Shown: positions 36,876 to 50,893 of the stretch, in pieces
Position numbering within the stretch: the first letter of the stretch is position 1
Layout of the letters: every line of letters begins with the position of its first letter
Assembly: GCA_036001065.1 (NCBI GenBank)
Contig: DASYUQ010000087.1
Location: 1 to 50,893 of the forward strand
Direction: 5' to 3'
Length of the DNA: 50,893 nucleotides
DNA from: Candidatus Methylomirabilota bacterium
GTDB lineage: Bacteria; Methylomirabilota; Methylomirabilia; Rokubacteriales; CSP1-6
Notes under the pieces: generated by a model
Seen by the model: only the letters and a program-made list of their open reading frames with translations
Told to the model about the DNA's origin: nothing
Databases searched by the model: none
Translations under genes and position numbers: made by a program

Positions 36876-37211
36876 CTAGCTGCGGAGGCGCCCCGTGTCG
36901 CCGAGCACGCGGTCCACGAACGCTCCCGCCAGCCCCGTGTAGGCCGCGGGATCGAGCAGGCGGTCCAGCTCGGCGGTGGCGGCCAGGTCGCGCTTGACGG
37001 CGTCGAGGTCGAGCCGCTCGACGCGGGCACCGCGCGCGATGGCGTCGGCCGCCGCGGCGGGAATGATGCCGAGCTCGGCCTGGCCGGCGGCCAGCGCCGC
37101 CTCCACGTCGCGCCAGCGCTGGATCATCGCGCGCTCGTCGAAGAGAGCGCGCATCTTCGACGCCGCGAACTGACCGCCGAACAGCTCGAAGTCGATGACG
37201 TGGCTAGGCAC
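36876..37211 (-). pseudogene. adenylosuccinate lyase / carboxymuconate cycloisomerase family, internal deletion
   Basis: A 111-residue frame that joins the N-terminal about 75 residues of a class II fumarase-family lyase (VIDFELFGGQFAASKMRALF ... VKRDLAATA) directly to a C-terminal tail (LDRLLDPAAYTGLAGAFVDRVLG). The whole middle, about 350 residues including the catalytic helices and the GSSxMPxKxN loop, is missing, yet the frame is kept. The start GTG 37211 overlaps the HIT gene stop by 8 bases. It cannot be catalytically active. The tail resembles PcaB-type more than PurB, which is only a guess. Confidence 0.7.
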
Positions 37212-37539
37212 CCGAACGCCGCCCCGCCAGGAAGTGGAAGTGCACGTGGTAGACGTGCTGCCCGCCCTCGGGGCCACAGTTGACACCCACGCGGTAGCCG
37301 CGCTCGGCGAAGCCCTTGGCCTCGCCGAGCTTCCGCGCCGCCAGCAGACAGCGCCCGACCACCTCGACGTCGCCGGGCTCCATCGCCATGATGGAGGCGA
37401 TGTGGCGCTTGGGCACGATCAACAGGTGCACCGGCGCCTTGGGATAGATGTCCTTGAAGGCCAGCACGGCGTCGTCCTCGTACTCGATGTCGGCCGGGAT
37501 CTTCCGGTCGACGATCCGGCAGAACAGACAGTCGCTCAT
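37204..37539 (-). CDS. HIT family nucleotide hydrolase/transferase (HinT-like)
   Basis: A protein of 111 residues starting MSDCLFCRIVDRKIPADI. It has FKDIYPKAPVHLLIVPKRH and the histidine triad as HVYHVHFHFL near the C-terminus. HinT-like enzymes hydrolyse adenosine phosphoramidates. I chose the ATG at 37539; an ATG five codons upstream (37554) is also possible. It overlaps the lyase remnant by 8 bases. Its promoter probably shares the AT-rich spot at about 37.56 kb with the divergent small gene. Confidence 0.92.
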   Translation of the reverse strand: MSDCLFCRIVDRKIPADIEYEDDAVLAFKDIYPKAPVHLLIVPKRHIASIMAMEPGDVEVVGRCLLAARKLGEAKGFAERGYRVGVNCGPEGGQHVYHVHFHFLAGRRSGA

Positions 37540-37958: not shown

Positions 37959-38483
37959 ATGAGCCGGCCCTCTCCTCTTTCCGCGATGTTTGCGACCCTA
38001 CGAGCCCGGATCGGCCCACCTAGGTTTGAGTTCGTGTTCGATCCAGAGTGTTCGAGTTGCGTCTGGAATCGTTTTGGTCGGCTGCCGTGGTTTCGGGTTG
38101 GAATTGTCAACTCCGGCGAGCGGACGATCGAAGATGCTGGCGTGTTTTTGATTGAGTTTGGTGGCTTCCCGATGCAATTGCCATCGCTACTCCGCTGGAT
38201 GGACGATCAGGCAGAGCCCGGCACAACCCGACCGCTACATCCAACCACCCATGGCACGCATCGACATGTTGATCTGGTCAACGAGACGGGACAGACGGGC
38301 TGGATGCATGTCTCTCTGGCCCGCGGACATTACCCGATCTTTTGGTGGTGGCGTAAATGCGAGTACCGCATCGTACTCTCCGTTGAAGGCGCGAACGCGG
38401 CACCGGTAGGTCGCGTCCTGACTCTATCATTTGATGATGCCGGTTGTCCGTTGTTGAGAGACGACGGCCCATTTAAACCATGA
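37959..38483 (+). CDS. hypothetical protein
   Basis: A frame of 174 residues from ATG 37959 (or 165 from ATG 37986); neither start has a clear ribosome-binding site. It contains FRVGIVNSGERTIEDAGVFLIEFGG, split by alternating hydrophobic strands, and ends SVEGANAAPVGRVLTLSFDDAGCPLL, suggesting a beta-sandwich. No family is recognised. The composition is less GC-rich than the core genes. It is the first gene right of the tRNA remnant. Confidence 0.5.
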   Translation: MSRPSPLSAMFATLRARIGPPRFEFVFDPECSSCVWNRFGRLPWFRVGIVNSGERTIEDAGVFLIEFGGFPMQLPSLLRWMDDQAEPGTTRPLHPTTHGTHRHVDLVNETGQTGWMHVSLARGHYPIFWWWRKCEYRIVLSVEGANAAPVGRVLTLSFDDAGCPLLRDDGPFKP

Positions 38484-38938: not shown

Positions 38939-40390
38939 TCAAAGCGAGGGCAGGCCGAGTAGGAAGGAAAGAAAACGGTCCTCCTCGCCCTCCTCGACGA
39001 GACGCCACGCCTTAGTGAGCTCATCGAGCGTCAGCAGGCAAACGCGACGAGCGAGGGCGCCCTCCCTCACGGCCGAATCACCTTCCTGTCCGGCAAAAAG
39101 CGCAGGAACTAGAATCACTTCGGTCATTTCGCCGAACTCCCGGCGGAGCAAGCTGGTGGCATGGAGGAGTTTCTCGTAATCCTCACCTCGCGGGACGTTG
39201 ATAGTGCACGCGCCGACGACCAGCACGCGACGCGGCGCGTGGTAAGCGAGCAGATCCGCGGTCGCGACTTGAACGCTGGTCTCGGGATGGCGCATCTGGT
39301 CGTCGCGCTCGAGGTCGATGGTCCGGAAGCCCGCAAGCGTCAAGAGGTGAGCAACGCTCGCCTGGAACGCCATCTGCGGGCTGCGATCGAGCTTGCGATG
39401 CGGCGTCTCGTACGGACGCTCGAGCCGTCGGCGCACCTCGGTGAGATCCCAGAATCGCGAGAGACAGACCAGGAGTGGGTTGCGCTCAGCGAGCGGCAGA
39501 AGATCGTGAACTCGCCGGCGCAGCTCGTCGAGCTCGGGGAGAGCAGGGTGCGTGAGCACGATGTCTATGAGTTCTTCTCGATCCGCCTTGAGCTCGGTCG
39601 ATCCGCGCTGGACTACAAAGTCCCCGCGCTCACCCGCAGCTCGAAGGAAGACCTCGCGGTGCTCCAGGACAGCCAGGCCATCTGGCGCGCGCTTCGTTAG
39701 GAAGCAGCGAAATCCGCCAAGGCTCTTGGCTGCTATCGCCTCAATGGCGAGAACAGTACCGTCGAAGCCGAGTTCGGTAATACTCGCTGGCATCAGGACT
39801 TCGGTGAATACGTTGCCGAAGCGGGTCGAGGTATCGCGCACTTCGAGGTATGCCCGCATCGCGGTCTCGCACGATGGGAGCCCGAGCTCTCGGCGGACCT
39901 CCGCATCGAGCACAGCGATATCGGTCGTCTTCGCGGGGAAAACCCCTCCGTTGGGGGTGTAGGAGAACTCGATACCCGGCCAAATTTCTTTACCAATAGG
40001 TTCGCAAGTATGTCGGTACCGCTCGATGCGCCCTTTCAGGTCGCCCGCATTAAGCGGAGCCGTCTCAAGGCTTAGCCCCTCAGGGGCGACGCGGGCGAGC
40101 AGCACGTGCCTTGGTGGTAGAGCCGGAAGCTGAGATAAGGGGACGACGGCATGGAAGATTGCGAAGCGATCCGTGCGCGGCCTCCCGAGTCGGCGCTCAA
40201 GCTCCAAGTACTTGCCGCGGATGGTTTCCTGGGAATGGAATGAGACCCGGATCACCGTCCGAAGGGGCAGCCACTCGCCTGCACTGACGCTGGTTGACTC
40301 CCGGCACGCCGCGACCCTGATATCGACGGTCTGCAGGGCGTCGGCAAGGCCGACGAGTACCTCCCCGAGGGACACCATTATGCTTCCCAC
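38939..40390 (-). CDS. uncharacterised 483-residue protein with a possible nuclease-like C-terminal domain
   Basis: No family is recognised. The N-terminal half (about 1-290) is mixed alpha/beta without clear motifs. The last third contains FQASVAHLLTLAGF, an acid in ATADLLAYHAPRRVLVVGACT and a helix with EDYEKLLHATSLLRR. This resembles the strand-acid-strand core of restriction-endonuclease-like folds, but the usual ExK is replaced by GACT, so activity is doubtful. An alternative start is Met5. It is a single gene facing leftward and is flanked by gaps. An accessory or defence role is inference from location only. Confidence 0.65.
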   Translation of the reverse strand: MGSIMVSLGEVLVGLADALQTVDIRVAACRESTSVSAGEWLPLRTVIRVSFHSQETIRGKYLELERRLGRPRTDRFAIFHAVVPLSQLPALPPRHVLLARVAPEGLSLETAPLNAGDLKGRIERYRHTCEPIGKEIWPGIEFSYTPNGGVFPAKTTDIAVLDAEVRRELGLPSCETAMRAYLEVRDTSTRFGNVFTEVLMPASITELGFDGTVLAIEAIAAKSLGGFRCFLTKRAPDGLAVLEHREVFLRAAGERGDFVVQRGSTELKADREELIDIVLTHPALPELDELRRRVHDLLPLAERNPLLVCLSRFWDLTEVRRRLERPYETPHRKLDRSPQMAFQASVAHLLTLAGFRTIDLERDDQMRHPETSVQVATADLLAYHAPRRVLVVGACTINVPRGEDYEKLLHATSLLRREFGEMTEVILVPALFAGQEGDSAVREGALARRVCLLTLDELTKAWRLVEEGEEDRFLSFLLGLPSL

Positions 40391-41623: not shown

Positions 41624-42016
41624 CTATCGGCTTACTGTCTTACCCTTGAATCGTTCCTTTCGATCGGGCGGCTCATTTTGACGAGATTTCGCGTAGGCTA
41701 GCGTGCGTTTGACTTGGTGCTCTGCAAAATATCGGAGAATCTCATCCTGCGTCTTGCCTGCGAGTTCCTCTTGTAGCCGACTGATTGCTGCCTGGATGAT
41801 GAGCGAACGACTAGCCTTCGGGTACCCGGCTTGGTGGAGTTGCTCGGTGGTTTGATCTACCGACGCTGCTTGGTCCGTGTGTAAGCTGATAGCGACCACC
41901 TTGTACGTCTTGGCGGACGTTTCAGAGCCACTCGCTCGCTTTCCCGGTCGGCGCTTTCTCATGACTCGCTGCTTCACATGCCCAGCTCTGCTCGCCATCC
42001 GCCGCATCTCCGACAT
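41624..42016 (-). CDS. small basic protein, ribbon-helix-helix-like
   Basis: A 130-residue protein rich in Arg and Lys. The middle (YKVVAISLHTDQAASVDQTT ... YPKASRSLIIQAAISRLQEEL) has a strand followed by two helices as in ribbon-helix-helix DNA-binding proteins, and the flanks are charged and disordered. It could be a regulator or an antitoxin; no toxin gene lies beside it. Translation may instead begin at Met19. It is transcribed away from the metallo-hydrolase gene 313 bp to its right, so it might control that cluster; this is inference. Confidence 0.5.
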   Translation of the reverse strand: MSEMRRMASRAGHVKQRVMRKRRPGKRASGSETSAKTYKVVAISLHTDQAASVDQTTEQLHQAGYPKASRSLIIQAAISRLQEELAGKTQDEILRYFAEHQVKRTLAYAKSRQNEPPDRKERFKGKTVSR

Positions 42017-42329: not shown

Positions 42330-43493
42330 ATGCCCGATCACACGATCACCTACTTTCCCGTCGGCAATGGCGACACAATTCTCATTACTCTCGCCGACAA
42401 GACGACGTTCGTGATTGACCTTAACGTCACGGAAGCGTCGAGCGACAAGGACGATCCCTCGCGGTACGATGTCCACGGACATCTGCTGAGGGAGGCCCGT
42501 AGTGATGGCGCCGGCTATCAGCATCACGACGCCTTTCTCAATTCGCACCCCGACCAGGACCACATCCGTGGCTACAGGACGGTCTTTTACGCGGGAGATC
42601 CGACGAAGTACACCGACAAGGACAAAAGGGCCGGGCGCATTATCGCGGATGAGCTTTGGTTCGCGCCGCGCATCTTTTGGCCGTGGGCGGAGAGCGATCT
42701 CTGCGACGACGCCAAGGCCTTCAAGAAGGAGGTGGATCGGCGGATCGTTCTTTACCGAGTCGGGTCCGAGGCTCGGAACCTGCCCGGCAATCGGATTAGG
42801 ATCGTTGGCTACACCGATAACCCTGAGCTCAAAGGTCTTGAGGGCCTGGTCATCGTCCCGGGGAACGCGATTAACCTGGTGAACGGCAGCATCAAGAAAG
42901 ACTTTGCATTCTTCGTCCATGCCCCCGTCCGGAAGGATACCGATGCGGAATGGCAGAAGCGAAATGACACGAGCGTCGTCCTCCAGGCCCGGTTCGCCGT
43001 GGACGGCGTGGAGAACGCGGCCCTGGCGTTCTTCGGCGGCGACGCCGGATGCGCGATCTGGGAGGCCATCATCGATAAGAGCCGTGACGCGACGCTCGAC
43101 TGGGATCTCTTCCTTGCGCCTCACCACTGTTCGTGGACGTTCTTCAGCGAACTGCCATCCGAAGAGAACAAACCGAGCGAGAAGATCCGGGCCTTCCTCA
43201 AGAAGCACAAGCGGAAGGGCGCCTTCGTGATCGCCTCGTCGAAGCCGATCAAAGACGACGACGATGACCCGCCCCACTACCAGGCGGCTGTGCTCTACCG
43301 CAAGGAGGTCGGCGACGATCACTTCATCTGCACGTGCGAGCATCCTGATGCGAAGAAGCCGCTGCCGATCTACTTCCGTATGACGAAGAACGGGCCTCAA
43401 AAGGATGAATACTCAAAGGGAAGTCAGGTCGTCTCCTCCGCCGCGCTCGCGGCCACAGTAACGACGCCGAAGACGTATGGGTGGCGGGCCTGA
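42330..43493 (+). CDS. metallo-beta-lactamase-fold hydrolase, ComEC-like
   Basis: A 387-residue soluble protein. It starts with the typical first strands (TITYFPVGNGDTILITL, FVIDLN) and has the metal motif SHPDQDH (His73, Asp75, Asp77, His78). An acidic ligand follows in FFGGDAGCAIWE and a late histidine pair in FLAPHHCSWTFFSE. These are the features of the ComEC/Rec2-type branch of the fold. It lacks membrane segments, so it is a stand-alone enzyme of unknown substrate. It has a good ribosome-binding site and overlaps the next gene by 17 bases, so the two are coupled. In reported gene neighbourhoods of prokaryotic E1/E2/JAB proteins a hydrolase of this fold recurs, as I recall. Confidence 0.82.
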   Translation: MPDHTITYFPVGNGDTILITLADKTTFVIDLNVTEASSDKDDPSRYDVHGHLLREARSDGAGYQHHDAFLNSHPDQDHIRGYRTVFYAGDPTKYTDKDKRAGRIIADELWFAPRIFWPWAESDLCDDAKAFKKEVDRRIVLYRVGSEARNLPGNRIRIVGYTDNPELKGLEGLVIVPGNAINLVNGSIKKDFAFFVHAPVRKDTDAEWQKRNDTSVVLQARFAVDGVENAALAFFGGDAGCAIWEAIIDKSRDATLDWDLFLAPHHCSWTFFSELPSEENKPSEKIRAFLKKHKRKGAFVIASSKPIKDDDDDPPHYQAAVLYRKEVGDDHFICTCEHPDAKKPLPIYFRMTKNGPQKDEYSKGSQVVSSAALAATVTTPKTYGWRA

Positions 43494-45822
43494 GTATCAT
43501 TCCTCGGCCCGGCGGGAGCTCGCGCCCGCCGAGCTTTCGGCATCCATGCGTGCGGCGGTCGACGAGTTGCGGGCACGGTTTCCCGGAGCGGGCGTGCGCT
43601 GCCTCACGTGGAACGACGCTTATCACGCGATTGCGATGCAGGTTTTGGTCGACTTGCCATCGCGGGGGCCCGTAGACGATGTAGACATCCGCACCGTCGA
43701 GCCAATTCTGCTTCTTGTGCACCAAAAGCAGTTTCCTCGGAAAGCGCCGTTCGCTTACTCCGACCGGCTAGACTTCCCAAGCTCGAGGCTGCCACACCTC
43801 ATTCCGACCGGGCGTAAGGACTTGGCTTGCTTCTGTCTCCATCGTGGAAGCCTCGACGACTGGTTCGCGGAGCACAGCGTCACAGATCTCGTGCACCGCG
43901 TGCAGGGATGGCTCCGGGACGCGGCGAGCAACCGGCTGATCCGGGAGGAAGACCGCTTCGAGGGAACCCGCATCGACCACGCCGTCGGGATTATTGTCTA
44001 CCCTGCTCGCGACCTTACTGGTGCGGTCGAAGCCGGTTGGGCCAGTTCGGGCGGCTGCCAAGGCAGTTCATACCTTATGGCGACGCTGCTCAAGAATCAG
44101 GCCACTGGGGCATACTTTTCGGCTCGGATCTCCTATCGCATAGATTTCGTACTGCCTGAAACGCCGAGCGGGCGGCTGATCGACCTCTTCCGGAAGTACA
44201 ATCGTGTGATCGACGAGAAGGCCGATGAAGATCGGCTGCTCCTCGGCATGCTCGTTTGGGCATCAAAGACTGCGGTGACTCGATACTTCGGGACTCTTCC
44301 GGCCTCCTACGGCGACCTCCGCAACTTCTGCCGCGAAATCGACATAGACCTTGAGGCTGCAGCCGCGCCATATCGGGCCCTCGGTGCTCAGCTGCTTGGC
44401 GGTGTCCCGATGGTAGTCGCGCTCCTCCGTCCCCATGCGCTAATTGGGGAGGGGACGGCCGTAGAACTCCTCAACTTCGTGATCCTCGCATCCGAAGACC
44501 ATTCGAACGAGGACGGTACCTGGAAGGACGAGGCGCCGGTGATGGCGCTCAGTCACCGCTCTCCCCTGACCGCCTCTTTCGCTCGTGAGATGTCGCGCGA
44601 GTCGGCCGAGGCGCCGACACGTGTCGCGCTTGTGGGTTGCGGCGCCCTCGGCTCGAAGGTTAGCCTTCACCTCGCTCGGGCGGGGCATGTGAGCCAGAGC
44701 CTTGTCGACCTGGCGGATCTTGCGCCCCATCATCTCGTACGCCACGGCCTACCGCCGGAGGCCGTCGGCAAGAACAAGGCCGAAGGCCTCGCGGGCTACA
44801 TCAAGTCGATGTACCGCCTCGACGAGTCGCATGTAGATGTCCGCTCGTATCCAATATCGATTTATGACCTCCTAGAGCGCCCTGACGAATTTCTCGACAC
44901 TCCGTTTCTGATCGACGCAACGGCGTCGACCGCGGTCCTGAACGCGCTCGTCGACACGCACGACCTGCCGGCATCGCTTCACTTCTCGCGCTGCGAGATC
45001 GCGCACGCGGGGCGGTTGGGAATTCTTCTCTGGGAGGGGACGGCCCGGAATCCGAGACTCGATGATCTCCAGGCATATCTTTTTCATCTCGGACGCCACA
45101 ATAGGGCGATCGCGGAATGGCTCGCGGCGCATCGCCGGACGCAGCAAGAAGAGCGAGCCGAGGTTCTCGAAGAGATCGGGATCGGTATGAGCTGCAGTTC
45201 GACGACGATGCGTCTCTCGGACGACGTGATCGCCGTCCACGCAGCGCTAGTCGCTTCGGCCTACAAGCTCCGGGATAAGTGGGCGAGAGAGGGACTCGGC
45301 AGAATCCAGCTATCGCTCCTGGATGTGGGGAGCGGAGTGAACGCAGGTACTGAGACCCTGACAGTTCCGCCGGTCCTCATCCTCGACGCGCGCGATGCCG
45401 ACGCCTGGCAGGTGCGAATTCACGCCCATGTAGTGGATAAGCTTCGCATCTGGATGAAGCGGGCAGGGAGGAACGAGACAGGGGGGCTTCTCCTAGGCTT
45501 TGCTCACCGAAAGCGTAAAGTGATCTACATCACGGACGCCCTGCCGCCGTCGCCCGACTCGAAGGGAACTCCCTACGCCTTCAAACGCGGCGTAAAGGAC
45601 TACCCTGAGACCTTGGACGAGGTCGGAGGGAGGACCGGCAACCTCATCGGCTACGTTGGTGAGTGGCACTCGCATCCACAGGGACCCGCCGAGTTGAGCG
45701 AAAAAGACTTGCTGGCAGTGGCGGAGATCCGCGCTCATCTCGATAACGCGGGGCTGCCGACGCACATCATGGTCATTGCGCCGAAGGAAATCGCCTCCTT
45801 CGTCTTCACAACCGACTACTGA
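43477..45822 (+). CDS. E2-E1(ThiF)-JAB triple-domain protein of a ubiquitin-like conjugation system
   Basis: A 781-residue fusion. The first 165 residues look like a prokaryotic E2: hydrophobic strands, FPRKAPFAYSDRLDFPSSRL, then PHLIPTG (His107) and ACFCLHRGSL with Cys118/Cys120, one of which would be the catalytic cysteine. Residues about 170-375 are a linker domain that I cannot assign. The E1/ThiF domain follows, with VALVGCGALGSKV (Gly387, 389, 392), DLADLAPHHLVRHG, the conserved Lys in VGKNKAEGL, LIDATAS and a late cysteine in MSCSSTTMR (Cys573). The JAB peptidase (about 645-781) has Glu667 in NETGGLLLG and the full metal motif HSHPQGPAELSEKD (His731, His733, Ser741, Asp744). Activation, transfer and removal are thus all in one chain. 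It has no attached ubiquitin-like domain. Confidence 0.85.
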   Translation: MGGGPEYHSSARRELAPAELSASMRAAVDELRARFPGAGVRCLTWNDAYHAIAMQVLVDLPSRGPVDDVDIRTVEPILLLVHQKQFPRKAPFAYSDRLDFPSSRLPHLIPTGRKDLACFCLHRGSLDDWFAEHSVTDLVHRVQGWLRDAASNRLIREEDRFEGTRIDHAVGIIVYPARDLTGAVEAGWASSGGCQGSSYLMATLLKNQATGAYFSARISYRIDFVLPETPSGRLIDLFRKYNRVIDEKADEDRLLLGMLVWASKTAVTRYFGTLPASYGDLRNFCREIDIDLEAAAAPYRALGAQLLGGVPMVVALLRPHALIGEGTAVELLNFVILASEDHSNEDGTWKDEAPVMALSHRSPLTASFAREMSRESAEAPTRVALVGCGALGSKVSLHLARAGHVSQSLVDLADLAPHHLVRHGLPPEAVGKNKAEGLAGYIKSMYRLDESHVDVRSYPISIYDLLERPDEFLDTPFLIDATASTAVLNALVDTHDLPASLHFSRCEIAHAGRLGILLWEGTARNPRLDDLQAYLFHLGRHNRAIAEWLAAHRRTQQEERAEVLEEIGIGMSCSSTTMRLSDDVIAVHAALVASAYKLRDKWAREGLGRIQLSLLDVGSGVNAGTETLTVPPVLILDARDADAWQVRIHAHVVDKLRIWMKRAGRNETGGLLLGFAHRKRKVIYITDALPPSPDSKGTPYAFKRGVKDYPETLDEVGGRTGNLIGYVGEWHSHPQGPAELSEKDLLAVAEIRAHLDNAGLPTHIMVIAPKEIASFVFTTDY

Positions 45823-45857: not shown

Positions 45858-46544
45858 ATGCTTGCCAAGTTTAATCTCTATGACTTCATCGGCGTTGTCG
45901 TCCCCGGGATCTTCTTCCTCTGGGCGCTCGGCGCGGTTTTGGACGTGAGCGCACTCCGCGAAGTACTACCGCTCGCCGGTGGCATCGCGGAAACGTCAGT
46001 AGTCATTGTCGTCGGATACGTAGTAGGTCTGTTGCTCCAAGGTATCAGTCAGCAGTTCACGGAGAGATTGTTGGTCTGGTGGTGGGGCGGCTTCCCGTCC
46101 GCGCGCTGGCTACTGCCCGAGGATCAACGGTTCACCAAGCGCTACCGCATCGAGGTTACGACCTCCTTACGCGCGAGATTTCAGATCAACCTTGCGGAGG
46201 AACGGCTCGGCGATATCCCCCGACCCGAGGCGCTCAAGCGAGCCCAGGAGATCTTCTATCGCTGCTATCGGGCTGTTGAGAAAGCGAGCGAGCTGCCCCA
46301 GACATTCAATGCGCAGTATGGCCTCTTTCGCGCCCTCCTCACAACGTTCGTGCTGCTCCTCATCGTGAGCTCATCGCGACTTGCCCTGACCTACAGGGAC
46401 GGGGCATTAAGTGCGCCAGGCTATCTTGCACTCGGCGTTGCCATCGTAGGCACTGTGGTGAGCTACTGGAGGGTGACGAAACGAGGCGAGGATTTCGCGA
46501 AAGCGGTCTACGACGTTTTGCTCGCGAGTGAGCCGCAACGATAA
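45858..46544 (+). CDS. multi-pass membrane protein linked to the E2-E1-JAB cluster
   Basis: A 228-residue protein with four predicted membrane helices: about 8-28 (DFIGVVVPGIFFLWALGAV), 40-65, 152-172 and 182-205. A charged cytoplasmic or periplasmic loop of about 85 residues lies between the second and third. The N-terminus FNLYDFIGVVVPG resembles small membrane proteins I associate with defence islands, but I cannot name the family. It begins 35 bases after the fusion gene on the same strand. Membrane proteins beside such systems often act as effectors or targets, so that role is the leading guess. Confidence 0.65.
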   Translation: MLAKFNLYDFIGVVVPGIFFLWALGAVLDVSALREVLPLAGGIAETSVVIVVGYVVGLLLQGISQQFTERLLVWWWGGFPSARWLLPEDQRFTKRYRIEVTTSLRARFQINLAEERLGDIPRPEALKRAQEIFYRCYRAVEKASELPQTFNAQYGLFRALLTTFVLLLIVSSSRLALTYRDGALSAPGYLALGVAIVGTVVSYWRVTKRGEDFAKAVYDVLLASEPQR

Positions 46545-46735: not shown

Positions 46736-47368
46736 TCACTCGATGAACAATCGTCTAAACCAAGCCACAAAACCAATCGCCTCAGCCGCATCGTGCGCAA
46801 AAATCCGAGCCCGCAAAGCAGTTCCGAAGGGAAGACCTGGCGGATCCTGCCAGGCTAGCCAGGCATGTATCGCGCTCTTCTGTTCGTCTGTCGAGTTACA
46901 ACCTTGCGTCAGCGCCTCATGAGTTGCGCGCCTAGCGAAATCCCAGCAGCGGTCATCCACCGGTACGAGGCGTTGGAGAAATTCTTCCAGTCGTCCCCCC
47001 GCGCTATTGTCTGGCATGAGCCAGACCCCTACGCGCGATGTGGGTCTGATACCTTGCACAATAGTGCCTTGCAGAACCGGCGTCGCAGGAAGTACGACTC
47101 CGACCGGAGCAAGACCATTCCGCAAGCTGCTCCACCGGGCTTCAATGTCTACATCCGCGTCCAGCACGATGCCGACGCGCTCGTACCGTCCCTTAGCAGT
47201 GACGGGTGCGGACTCCAGCAGTTCGCCGACCCCTCCAGTCTCGTCGATGTACGGAGCGGCTTCCGCGTCCCAATTGAAGCCATGCCGCACCATAAGATGG
47301 ACAATTGAATGAAGATCGTCGGTACCCTCCACTAGGAGACGAGACAGACTCTTCTTGGAGGGAGGCAT
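46736..47368 (-). CDS. TOPRIM-like protein, DUF3226 type
   Basis: A 210-residue protein. The N-terminus LLVEGTDDLHSIVHLM carries the TOPRIM glutamate (Glu14), and YERVGIVLDADVDIE carries the DxD pair (Asp70, Asp72). The rest is helical with a GVWLMPDNSAGGRLEEFL segment typical of DUF3226. TOPRIM domains in such proteins are usually nucleases. It overlaps the ATPase gene by 1 base as TAATG, so they are cotranslated and most likely form one complex. Confidence 0.75.
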   Translation of the reverse strand: MPPSKKSLSRLLVEGTDDLHSIVHLMVRHGFNWDAEAAPYIDETGGVGELLESAPVTAKGRYERVGIVLDADVDIEARWSSLRNGLAPVGVVLPATPVLQGTIVQGIRPTSRVGVWLMPDNSAGGRLEEFLQRLVPVDDRCWDFARRATHEALTQGCNSTDEQKSAIHAWLAWQDPPGLPFGTALRARIFAHDAAEAIGFVAWFRRLFIE

Positions 47369-48447
47369 TAGCGCATTTCGACGTGACGCCTCGCTGCGAC
47401 AGTGATCTCCTGCACACTATAGCGAACTGTGTGATCAAGATCACGCTCTATCCGATGAAGTGCTACATCGATCTCGCTAATCTGCCGGTCTCCGTGAACA
47501 GAAGCAAGCGAGTTGACGCAGTCCAAGCTGTGAGTTGTTGCGAATACTTGCACATCTAATGCTTTGGCGGTTTCGATGACCAGGCGCCACATATTCTCCA
47601 TGACGGTAAAGTGAAGACCAGTGTCAATCTCGTCTACAAACAAGTAACCACCTCGAGCGGCAATTAGGTTCAGTGATAGCGCAAGCAGGCGCTTCAAGCC
47701 GTCGCCAACGTTTCCGATCGGCAGCCTTTGGTCGGAGTCCCTAAGCTTCAGAAAGACCCCGCGCCGAAGGCGTCGTTCTCCGAGAAACGCTATTCGCTCT
47801 ATGGACGGTTCGATGATCTGCAGTGCTTCAACAACTTTATTCTCCTCGGGCTTAAGAGCTATGCTGTCCCACAAGGCATTTAGGCGAGGCGTTTCTATCG
47901 ACTCGGGACGTAGAAAATTTGCGGCCGCAGAGCTCTCCACAGGTGCAAGCGAAATCCTCCGACGGGCTTCCGAAGAGATGGCACCAGTGGGAAGCAGCGG
48001 CAAAACGACAGGTCCGGGACTCGAACCGCTTAGGAAACTGATCGCTAGCGACGGGCCAAGCTGTGCAAGACCGAAAAGGTCGGGCTCTGCCACGCTACGC
48101 TCACTCGTAACTTCAATGATCTGGCACGTTACCGACTTAGGACCTGGCGTCCCGGAAATGGAGAAATGGGCGCCCTCAATCACGTGGCCGAAAAATTGAT
48201 GAGAAATGGCCAGATCACGCCGAACCATCTGTCTTTCTTCTTCATCGATCGATGGAGCCTCTTCGCCACGACGCATCGAGCTGCGAAACAGTGCCCATGC
48301 GTTACCGAGAACCAACAGCTCAATCGCGTCGAGAAGCGAGGTTTTACCCGCGTTATTCTTCCCGACAAATAAATTGACGCGGCTCAGGCCATCGACTCTA
48401 AGTTTTCTGAACGTTCGATAAGCGGTCAGCATCACGCTAGAAAGCAT
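47368..48447 (-). CDS. AAA/ABC-type ATPase, partner of the TOPRIM protein
   Basis: A 359-residue ATPase of the RecF/OLD type. It starts MLSSVMLTAYRTFRKLRVDGL and has Walker A GKNNAGKTS (29-37), a signature-like GNVGDGLKRLL (246-256), Walker B GYLFVDEIDTGLH (267-279) and an H-loop in ATTHSLDCV. It lacks its own TOPRIM domain, which is encoded by the next gene. This split arrangement is like PARIS (AriA with AriB) and class 2 OLD/Gabija systems, which block phage. The start at 48447 agrees with the family N-terminus. Anti-phage function is inference. Confidence 0.82.
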   Translation of the reverse strand: MLSSVMLTAYRTFRKLRVDGLSRVNLFVGKNNAGKTSLLDAIELLVLGNAWALFRSSMRRGEEAPSIDEEERQMVRRDLAISHQFFGHVIEGAHFSISGTPGPKSVTCQIIEVTSERSVAEPDLFGLAQLGPSLAISFLSGSSPGPVVLPLLPTGAISSEARRRISLAPVESSAAANFLRPESIETPRLNALWDSIALKPEENKVVEALQIIEPSIERIAFLGERRLRRGVFLKLRDSDQRLPIGNVGDGLKRLLALSLNLIAARGGYLFVDEIDTGLHFTVMENMWRLVIETAKALDVQVFATTHSLDCVNSLASVHGDRQISEIDVALHRIERDLDHTVRYSVQEITVAARRHVEMR

Positions 48448-50867: not shown

Positions 50868-50893
50868 ATGACCCTGGACGACAGCATACTCGG
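50868..50893 (+). CDS. start of a gene cut by the window edge (possible IS transposase)
   Basis: ATG at 50868 is preceded by GGGAGGA with 7 bases spacing; the visible residues are MTLDDSIL. The N-terminus resembles IS481-type helix-turn-helix transposases as I remember them, which is a weak basis. Confidence 0.35.

Follow-up and report, generated by a model that had tools for sequence, protein, structure and literature searches.

What does a bacterial conjugation enzyme attach when no ubiquitin-like protein is recognised beside it? The question is raised by two overlapping plus-strand genes on a contig of a Candidatus Methylomirabilota bacterium (DASYUQ010000087.1; the whole stretch of 50,893 nucleotides that was analysed is called the window here). 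The first gene (42330-43493) encodes a 387-residue protein with a ComEC-type metallo-beta-lactamase (MBL) fold, and the second (43477-45822, ATG start) encodes a 781-residue chain that carries E2, E1 and JAB domains. The pair was described in 2006, yet no modifier has been identified in its operon; a glycine in the tail of the MBL protein offers a testable answer. It is probable that the ComEC-type hydrolase is itself the ubiquitin-like modifier, which would be trimmed at this tail glycine and conjugated to targets or to itself, switching on defence. Comparison of related loci established a chain with the architecture of Cap2, its pairing with an MBL gene, an invariant glycine on a disordered tail, and third genes that vary between loci. 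Both the anti-phage activity of the system, which is named 6A-MBL, and its conjugation chemistry are what we infer.

The gene pair and its family

Is the architecture new? The sequence-only reading had supposed that the bacterial systems known so far have these functions on separate genes and with different partners, and this is contradicted by the literature and by family models. Operon type 6a of Iyer, Burroughs and Aravind (2006) consists of a triple-module E2+E1+JAB polypeptide encoded almost always beside a specialised metallo-beta-lactamase gene (PMC1779556, Table 1 row 6a). Likewise, NCBIfam holds a model for each gene of the pair. The E2-E1-JAB chain scored 502.1 bits with NF058523 (6A-MBL_cap2_3; cut-off 320), the MBL protein scored 348.8 bits with NF058524 (6A-MBL_enzyme; cut-off 220), and the label on both is "anti-phage 6A-MBL system". 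With E2, E1 and JAB in this order in one polypeptide, an adjacent MBL gene and the cap2_3 score, the pair is assigned by sequence to the known 6A-MBL system, or operon type 6a, and a new architecture is ruled out. The core is identical (two genes, domain order and MBL partner). The window copy adds a downstream Csx27-like membrane gene, and third genes are common in other 6A-MBL loci.

The fusion of E2, E1 and JAB in one chain, by contrast with the claim of novelty, was borne out by domain and structure searches. Prok-E2_A, ThiF and Prok-JAB follow one another in the chain, each above its curated Pfam cut-off. The E2 core covers residues 64-174 (43666-43998; PF14457, 8e-16), the E1 adenylation core covers residues 381-473 (44617-44895; PF00899, 1.3e-8), and the JAB/JAMM isopeptidase domain covers residues 650-760 (45424-45756; PF14464, 1.3e-9), all on the plus strand. 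A structure model of the chain (predicted local distance difference test score, pLDDT, 90.7) displayed at its N-terminus the alpha-beta4-alpha layout of an E2, the fold on which the sequence-only reading had staked its E2 assignment. In a Foldseek search the model matched Cap2 of Enterobacter cloacae (7to3_A) with E=3.4e-26 over 669 columns. The Cap2-like match also spans the region of about 170-380 between the E2 and E1 cores, and a profile of the E2-E1-JAB family matched Cap2 chains as well.

Are the catalytic residues intact? In an alignment of 106 relatives of the chain, Cys120 of the E2 domain and His107 are present in every sequence, and the same is true of G387, G389 and G392 of the GxGxxG loop (residues 387-392), D411 and K434 of the E1 domain. 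Cys573, the predicted E1 catalytic residue downstream of the ThiF core (45193-45195, plus strand), is present in 105 of the 106, with one gap. The JAMM residues E667, H731, H733, S741 and D744 are kept in 104-105 of them. Departures at Cys573 and the JAMM motif are limited to two loci, of which one is very divergent (L128) and the other is cut by the end of its record (L134). The catalytic residues proposed earlier thus stood for the nucleotide loop, Cys573 and the JAMM motif. Of the two cysteines named for the E2 domain, Cys120 is invariant and Cys118 was rejected, as its position varies among the relatives. Judged from the alignment, the catalytic residues of the chain are intact.

The partner protein had no match in a Pfam scan. 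A profile of the MBL family matched the MBL domain of ComEC at 1.4e-4 by sequence, and the structure model (pLDDT 88.7) found its best fold match in the beta-lactamase-like domain of ComEC (PDB 9ic4, Foldseek E=1.3e-13). H73, D75, D77, H78, D238, H265 and H266 are invariant among 48 MBL sequences. In other words, both the active-site motif and the fold of a ComEC-type hydrolase are present, and the proposed overlap of the chain's gene with a ComEC-like hydrolase gene holds at 17 nucleotides (43477-43493).

Evidence of a lasting partnership comes from other genomes. The homologue set comprised the best 80 of 307 genome matches together with chosen plasmid and viral loci, and is not a random sample. 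Pairing was scored in 91 loci: the window itself, 10 on plasmids and 80 in genomes, collected with the E2-E1-JAB protein as query. In 88 of the 91 the gene immediately upstream encodes an MBL protein, so the two genes are conserved together, a point on which the sequence-only reading had also rested its case. The three exceptions are two loci at a contig edge and one, L080, in which both genes are in a single frame (L080:4876-8283, 1135 residues). A true fusion was considered for L080 and rejected, as a frame change is likelier: a neighbouring frame continues into the usual MPHG tail of the MBL protein. The loci come from Bacteroidota, Bacillota, Chloroflexota, Cyanobacteriota, Acidobacteriota, many Pseudomonadota and one Methanosaeta metagenome-assembled genome, with further loci on Actinomycetota plasmids. 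Distant relatives also match NF058523 and NF058524. A search of a phage collection gave no match.

The tail glycine of the MBL protein

Residues 363-387 of the MBL protein (43416-43490, plus strand) are disordered in the model, with pLDDT below 50, and end in Y383-G384-WRA. The first sign of a conserved feature here was one near-C-terminal glycine that was invariant in a ten-sequence MBL alignment. In the alignment of 48 sequences Gly384 is 100% conserved, and the surrounding tail columns have mostly 0.2-0.4 identity. All paired full-length MBL proteins were then thinned to under 70% identity, giving a set of 56. Every one of these 56 has the glycine followed by 0-4 residues to the C-terminus, and 29 end exactly in glycine. 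The end motifs vary by branch (Y/H-G, Q-G, R-A-G, F-G), and the glycine is constant. On a maximum-likelihood tree built from the MBL core, the short extension after it was gained or lost at least 12 times, as expected if the extension is trimmed or irrelevant.

Could such a glycine arise by composition? When the last 30 residues were shuffled, a glycine fell within the last six in 34.3 +/- 3.5 of the 56 proteins, with a maximum of 47 in 2000 runs. Other proteins of the same loci have a glycine in the last five residues in 26 of 87 cases (second MBL 6/20, patatin 2/5, transmembrane (TM) 10/43, WYL 8/19), and the E2-E1-JAB proteins have one within the last six residues in 19 of 55.

A different origin is suggested by the layout of the genes, since the glycine could simply follow from where the second gene starts. 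In the window the start codon of that gene (tATGGg) spans the codons for Tyr and Gly in the MBL tail, within the 17-nucleotide overlap, and an in-frame ATG crosses the glycine codon in 26 of the 56 dereplicated loci, the window included, so that xATGG over Tyr/His-Gly codons might account for the residue. In the other 30 loci no in-frame ATG is present there, and the contexts are CAC-GG, CAG-GG, GCN-GG and TTC-GG (His as CAC, or Gln, Ala or Phe before the glycine). The glycine is kept in 30/30 of them. An explanation by the start codon is therefore hardly credible and was dropped. Because the residue persists where no start codon overlaps it, the tail glycine is, on the evidence of codon context, a feature of the protein.

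The same tail bears on what the JAB domain does. It might recognise the glycine only to mature the MBL enzyme or relieve its auto-inhibition, leaving E1 and E2 to act elsewhere without any conjugation of the MBL protein. HamM offers an example of an MBL nuclease that is activated by proteolysis (PMC12799240), and almost all of the relatives have an intact JAB domain. However, in the 29 proteins that end exactly in glycine there is nothing to cut, and the invariant E1 and E2 cysteines would be left without a substrate, making maturation alone quite improbable.

Comparison with CBASS and the proposed mechanism

How would a hydrolase come to be a modifier? The closest precedent in structure is the type II cyclic-oligonucleotide-based anti-phage signalling system (CBASS). 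There, CD-NTases end in a Gly or Ala through which Cap2 conjugates them, and Cap3 takes them off again (PMC10097602, PMC11153139). In one study conjugation raised cyclic-nucleotide production (PMC10097602), and another proposal is that a PspA-conjugated cyclase is held inactive until infection (PMC11153139). The window operon shares with type II CBASS an E1-E2 of Cap2 fold, a JAB isopeptidase, a partner with a C-terminal glycine and a downstream effector-like gene. Many 6A-MBL relatives also have a WYL regulator, and WYL/CapW proteins are linked to CBASS. Unlike type II CBASS, the operon has Cap2 and Cap3 functions fused, lacks a nucleotidyltransferase, has an MBL hydrolase as partner and often has a short extension past the glycine. 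No CD-NTase was found among the scanned neighbours in the window, and the MBL gene stands in that place. By analogy, the 6A-MBL anti-phage operon likely works as the type II CBASS conjugation module does, with the MBL enzyme in place of the cyclase. Because Cap2 sets a precedent for a C-terminal Gly or Ala and the tail glycine is invariant, it is probably the MBL enzyme that serves the E2-E1-JAB chain as ubiquitin-like substrate.

Other conjugation systems are less close. Bil and Bub are also bacterial modules of the E1/E2/JAB type. They encode their own ubiquitin-like protein, and the Bub structures in the Foldseek list of the chain (9eav, 9eae) matched more weakly than Cap2 did. On the side of the hydrolase, the ComEC nuclease domain and MBL proteins of defence (Avs1a, LmuA-type, HamM) share the ComEC-type fold and motif. 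They are domains of DNA-uptake channels or protease-activated nucleases, whereas the window protein has an E2-E1-JAB partner and a tail that ends in an invariant glycine.

Might the true modifier lie elsewhere? Iyer et al. identified no modifier in operon type 6a and suggested the ThiS/MoaD available in the host, a reading they offered for operons that lack a ubiquitin-like gene (PMC1779556). The chain could accordingly conjugate such a beta-grasp protein, or an unlinked ubiquitin-like protein, with the MBL enzyme serving only as effector or regulator. The operon type indeed has no recognised beta-grasp protein. Among the scanned window neighbours there was no ubiquitin-like Pfam match, and no beta-grasp ubiquitin-like gene was annotated beside the plasmid relatives, small unannotated open reading frames (ORFs) not having been searched exhaustively in either case. 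Against a modifier of this kind stand the invariance of the C-terminal glycine within a variable disordered tail, and the sister enzyme Cap2, which uses a non-ubiquitin protein via a C-terminal Gly or Ala. A host or unlinked modifier is thus unlikely.

If the MBL hydrolase is the modifier, the steps can be laid out as follows. The JAB domain would cut off the 0-4 residues past the glycine (WRA in the window copy). The E1 domain would adenylate the tail glycine and then hold it as a thioester at Cys573, and Cys120 of the E2 domain would transfer the MBL protein to a lysine of either a target or a second MBL protein. The JAB domain would also reverse the linkage. Conjugation may position or activate the hydrolase, which may act on nucleic acid or on a nucleotide. 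Where a third-gene effector is present, here the Csx27-like membrane protein, it might be triggered. Infection would then be stopped by the MBL hydrolase, alone or via that effector.

Two observations weigh against this scheme. The MBL protein does not have a ubiquitin fold, and neither do the CD-NTases. Many loci have no third gene, for example those on E. coli, Klebsiella, Vibrio and Xanthomonas plasmids (L130, L131, L136, L137), so an effector is not obligatory. If the scheme is true, the non-ubiquitin conjugation of CBASS would extend to a nuclease-like enzyme, and conjugation of CD-NTases would be a single instance of something more general, with defence enzymes standing in for ubiquitin. 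The view of the sequence-only reading that the biochemical role of the arrangement is not established agrees with the literature searched. That search, with most subscription papers and preprints outside its scope, found no published test of phage protection by 6A-MBL, and the tail-glycine proposal may already be in print.

Third genes and genomic setting

A probable third gene in the window (45858-46544, plus strand) starts 35 nucleotides past the stop codon of the E2-E1-JAB gene. Its 228-residue product is predicted to have four TM segments; this membrane protein is a candidate effector. The protein matched Csx27 in PADLOC (9.7e-9) and reached 29 bits with NCBIfam, below the cut-off of 65; by these scores it is Csx27-like, not a member of Csx27 (type VI-B accessory). 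It also weakly resembles TM proteins encoded by third genes at other 6A-MBL loci. Across loci the downstream genes encode membrane proteins, of which several match no family, patatin phospholipases or a second MBL (PADLOC PDC-M48B), or are absent; this survey used a small seed set and undercounts. On their predicted products, the third genes are variable and effector-like. The third genes of L045 and L050 match PADLOC PDC-M48A (membrane) and those of L035 and L046 match PDC-M48B (MBL), and part of the PADLOC candidate PDC-M48 may be accessory genes of 6A-MBL. WYL-domain regulators are found upstream in 43 of 106 loci, and none was recognised in the window.

Is the operon a defence system at all? 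The anti-phage label stems from NCBIfam naming only, and the operon could instead serve stress-related or housekeeping protein modification within a genomic island. The distribution argues otherwise, as it is patchy: in a survey of the phylum, which returned mostly ordinary ThiF proteins, the family was above cut-off in 1 of 95 genomes. Carriage on plasmids, the position of the operon in a low-GC (guanine plus cytosine) segment beside an AbiL-like pair, and the WYL regulators and patatin third genes of other loci also count against a non-defence role, which is very improbable. Since relatives are common on Enterobacterales and Acinetobacter plasmids, defence by 6A-MBL may affect the phage susceptibility of the hosts of these plasmids. 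Hundreds of plasmid records have 6A-MBL-like matches (e.g. L035, L130, L131, L139), many of them from Klebsiella, E. coli and Acinetobacter, and plasmids named for NDM-1 and IMP-4 are among them.

From about position 38000 the GC content of the window drops from about 0.70 to values of about 0.57-0.62, and it does not recover before the window ends at 50893. Because of this drop and the rarity of the family in the phylum, the low-GC segment with the 6A-MBL operon is probably an acquired island. Convergent with the operon is a minus-strand pair (46736-48447) of a DUF3226 protein and an AAA_15/AAA_21 ATPase, with matches to the PADLOC PDC-M38A/B and AbiLi models. As this AbiLi/PDC-M38-like pair converges on the operon, the two together look like a defence island.

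The remaining observations concern minus-strand ORFs. One of them, the immediate upstream neighbour of the operon (41624-42016), reads away from it and encodes a basic protein of 130 residues without a family; as a guess, this protein could be a regulator that replaces the WYL protein of other loci. Further out, a 483-residue protein (38939-40390) has no Pfam, PADLOC or convincing NCBIfam match, and its C-terminal part gives the impression, by eye only, of a nuclease-type domain. Near the island edge, a short ORF (36876-37286) with weak similarity to the C-terminus of adenylosuccinate lyase may be a gene fragment.

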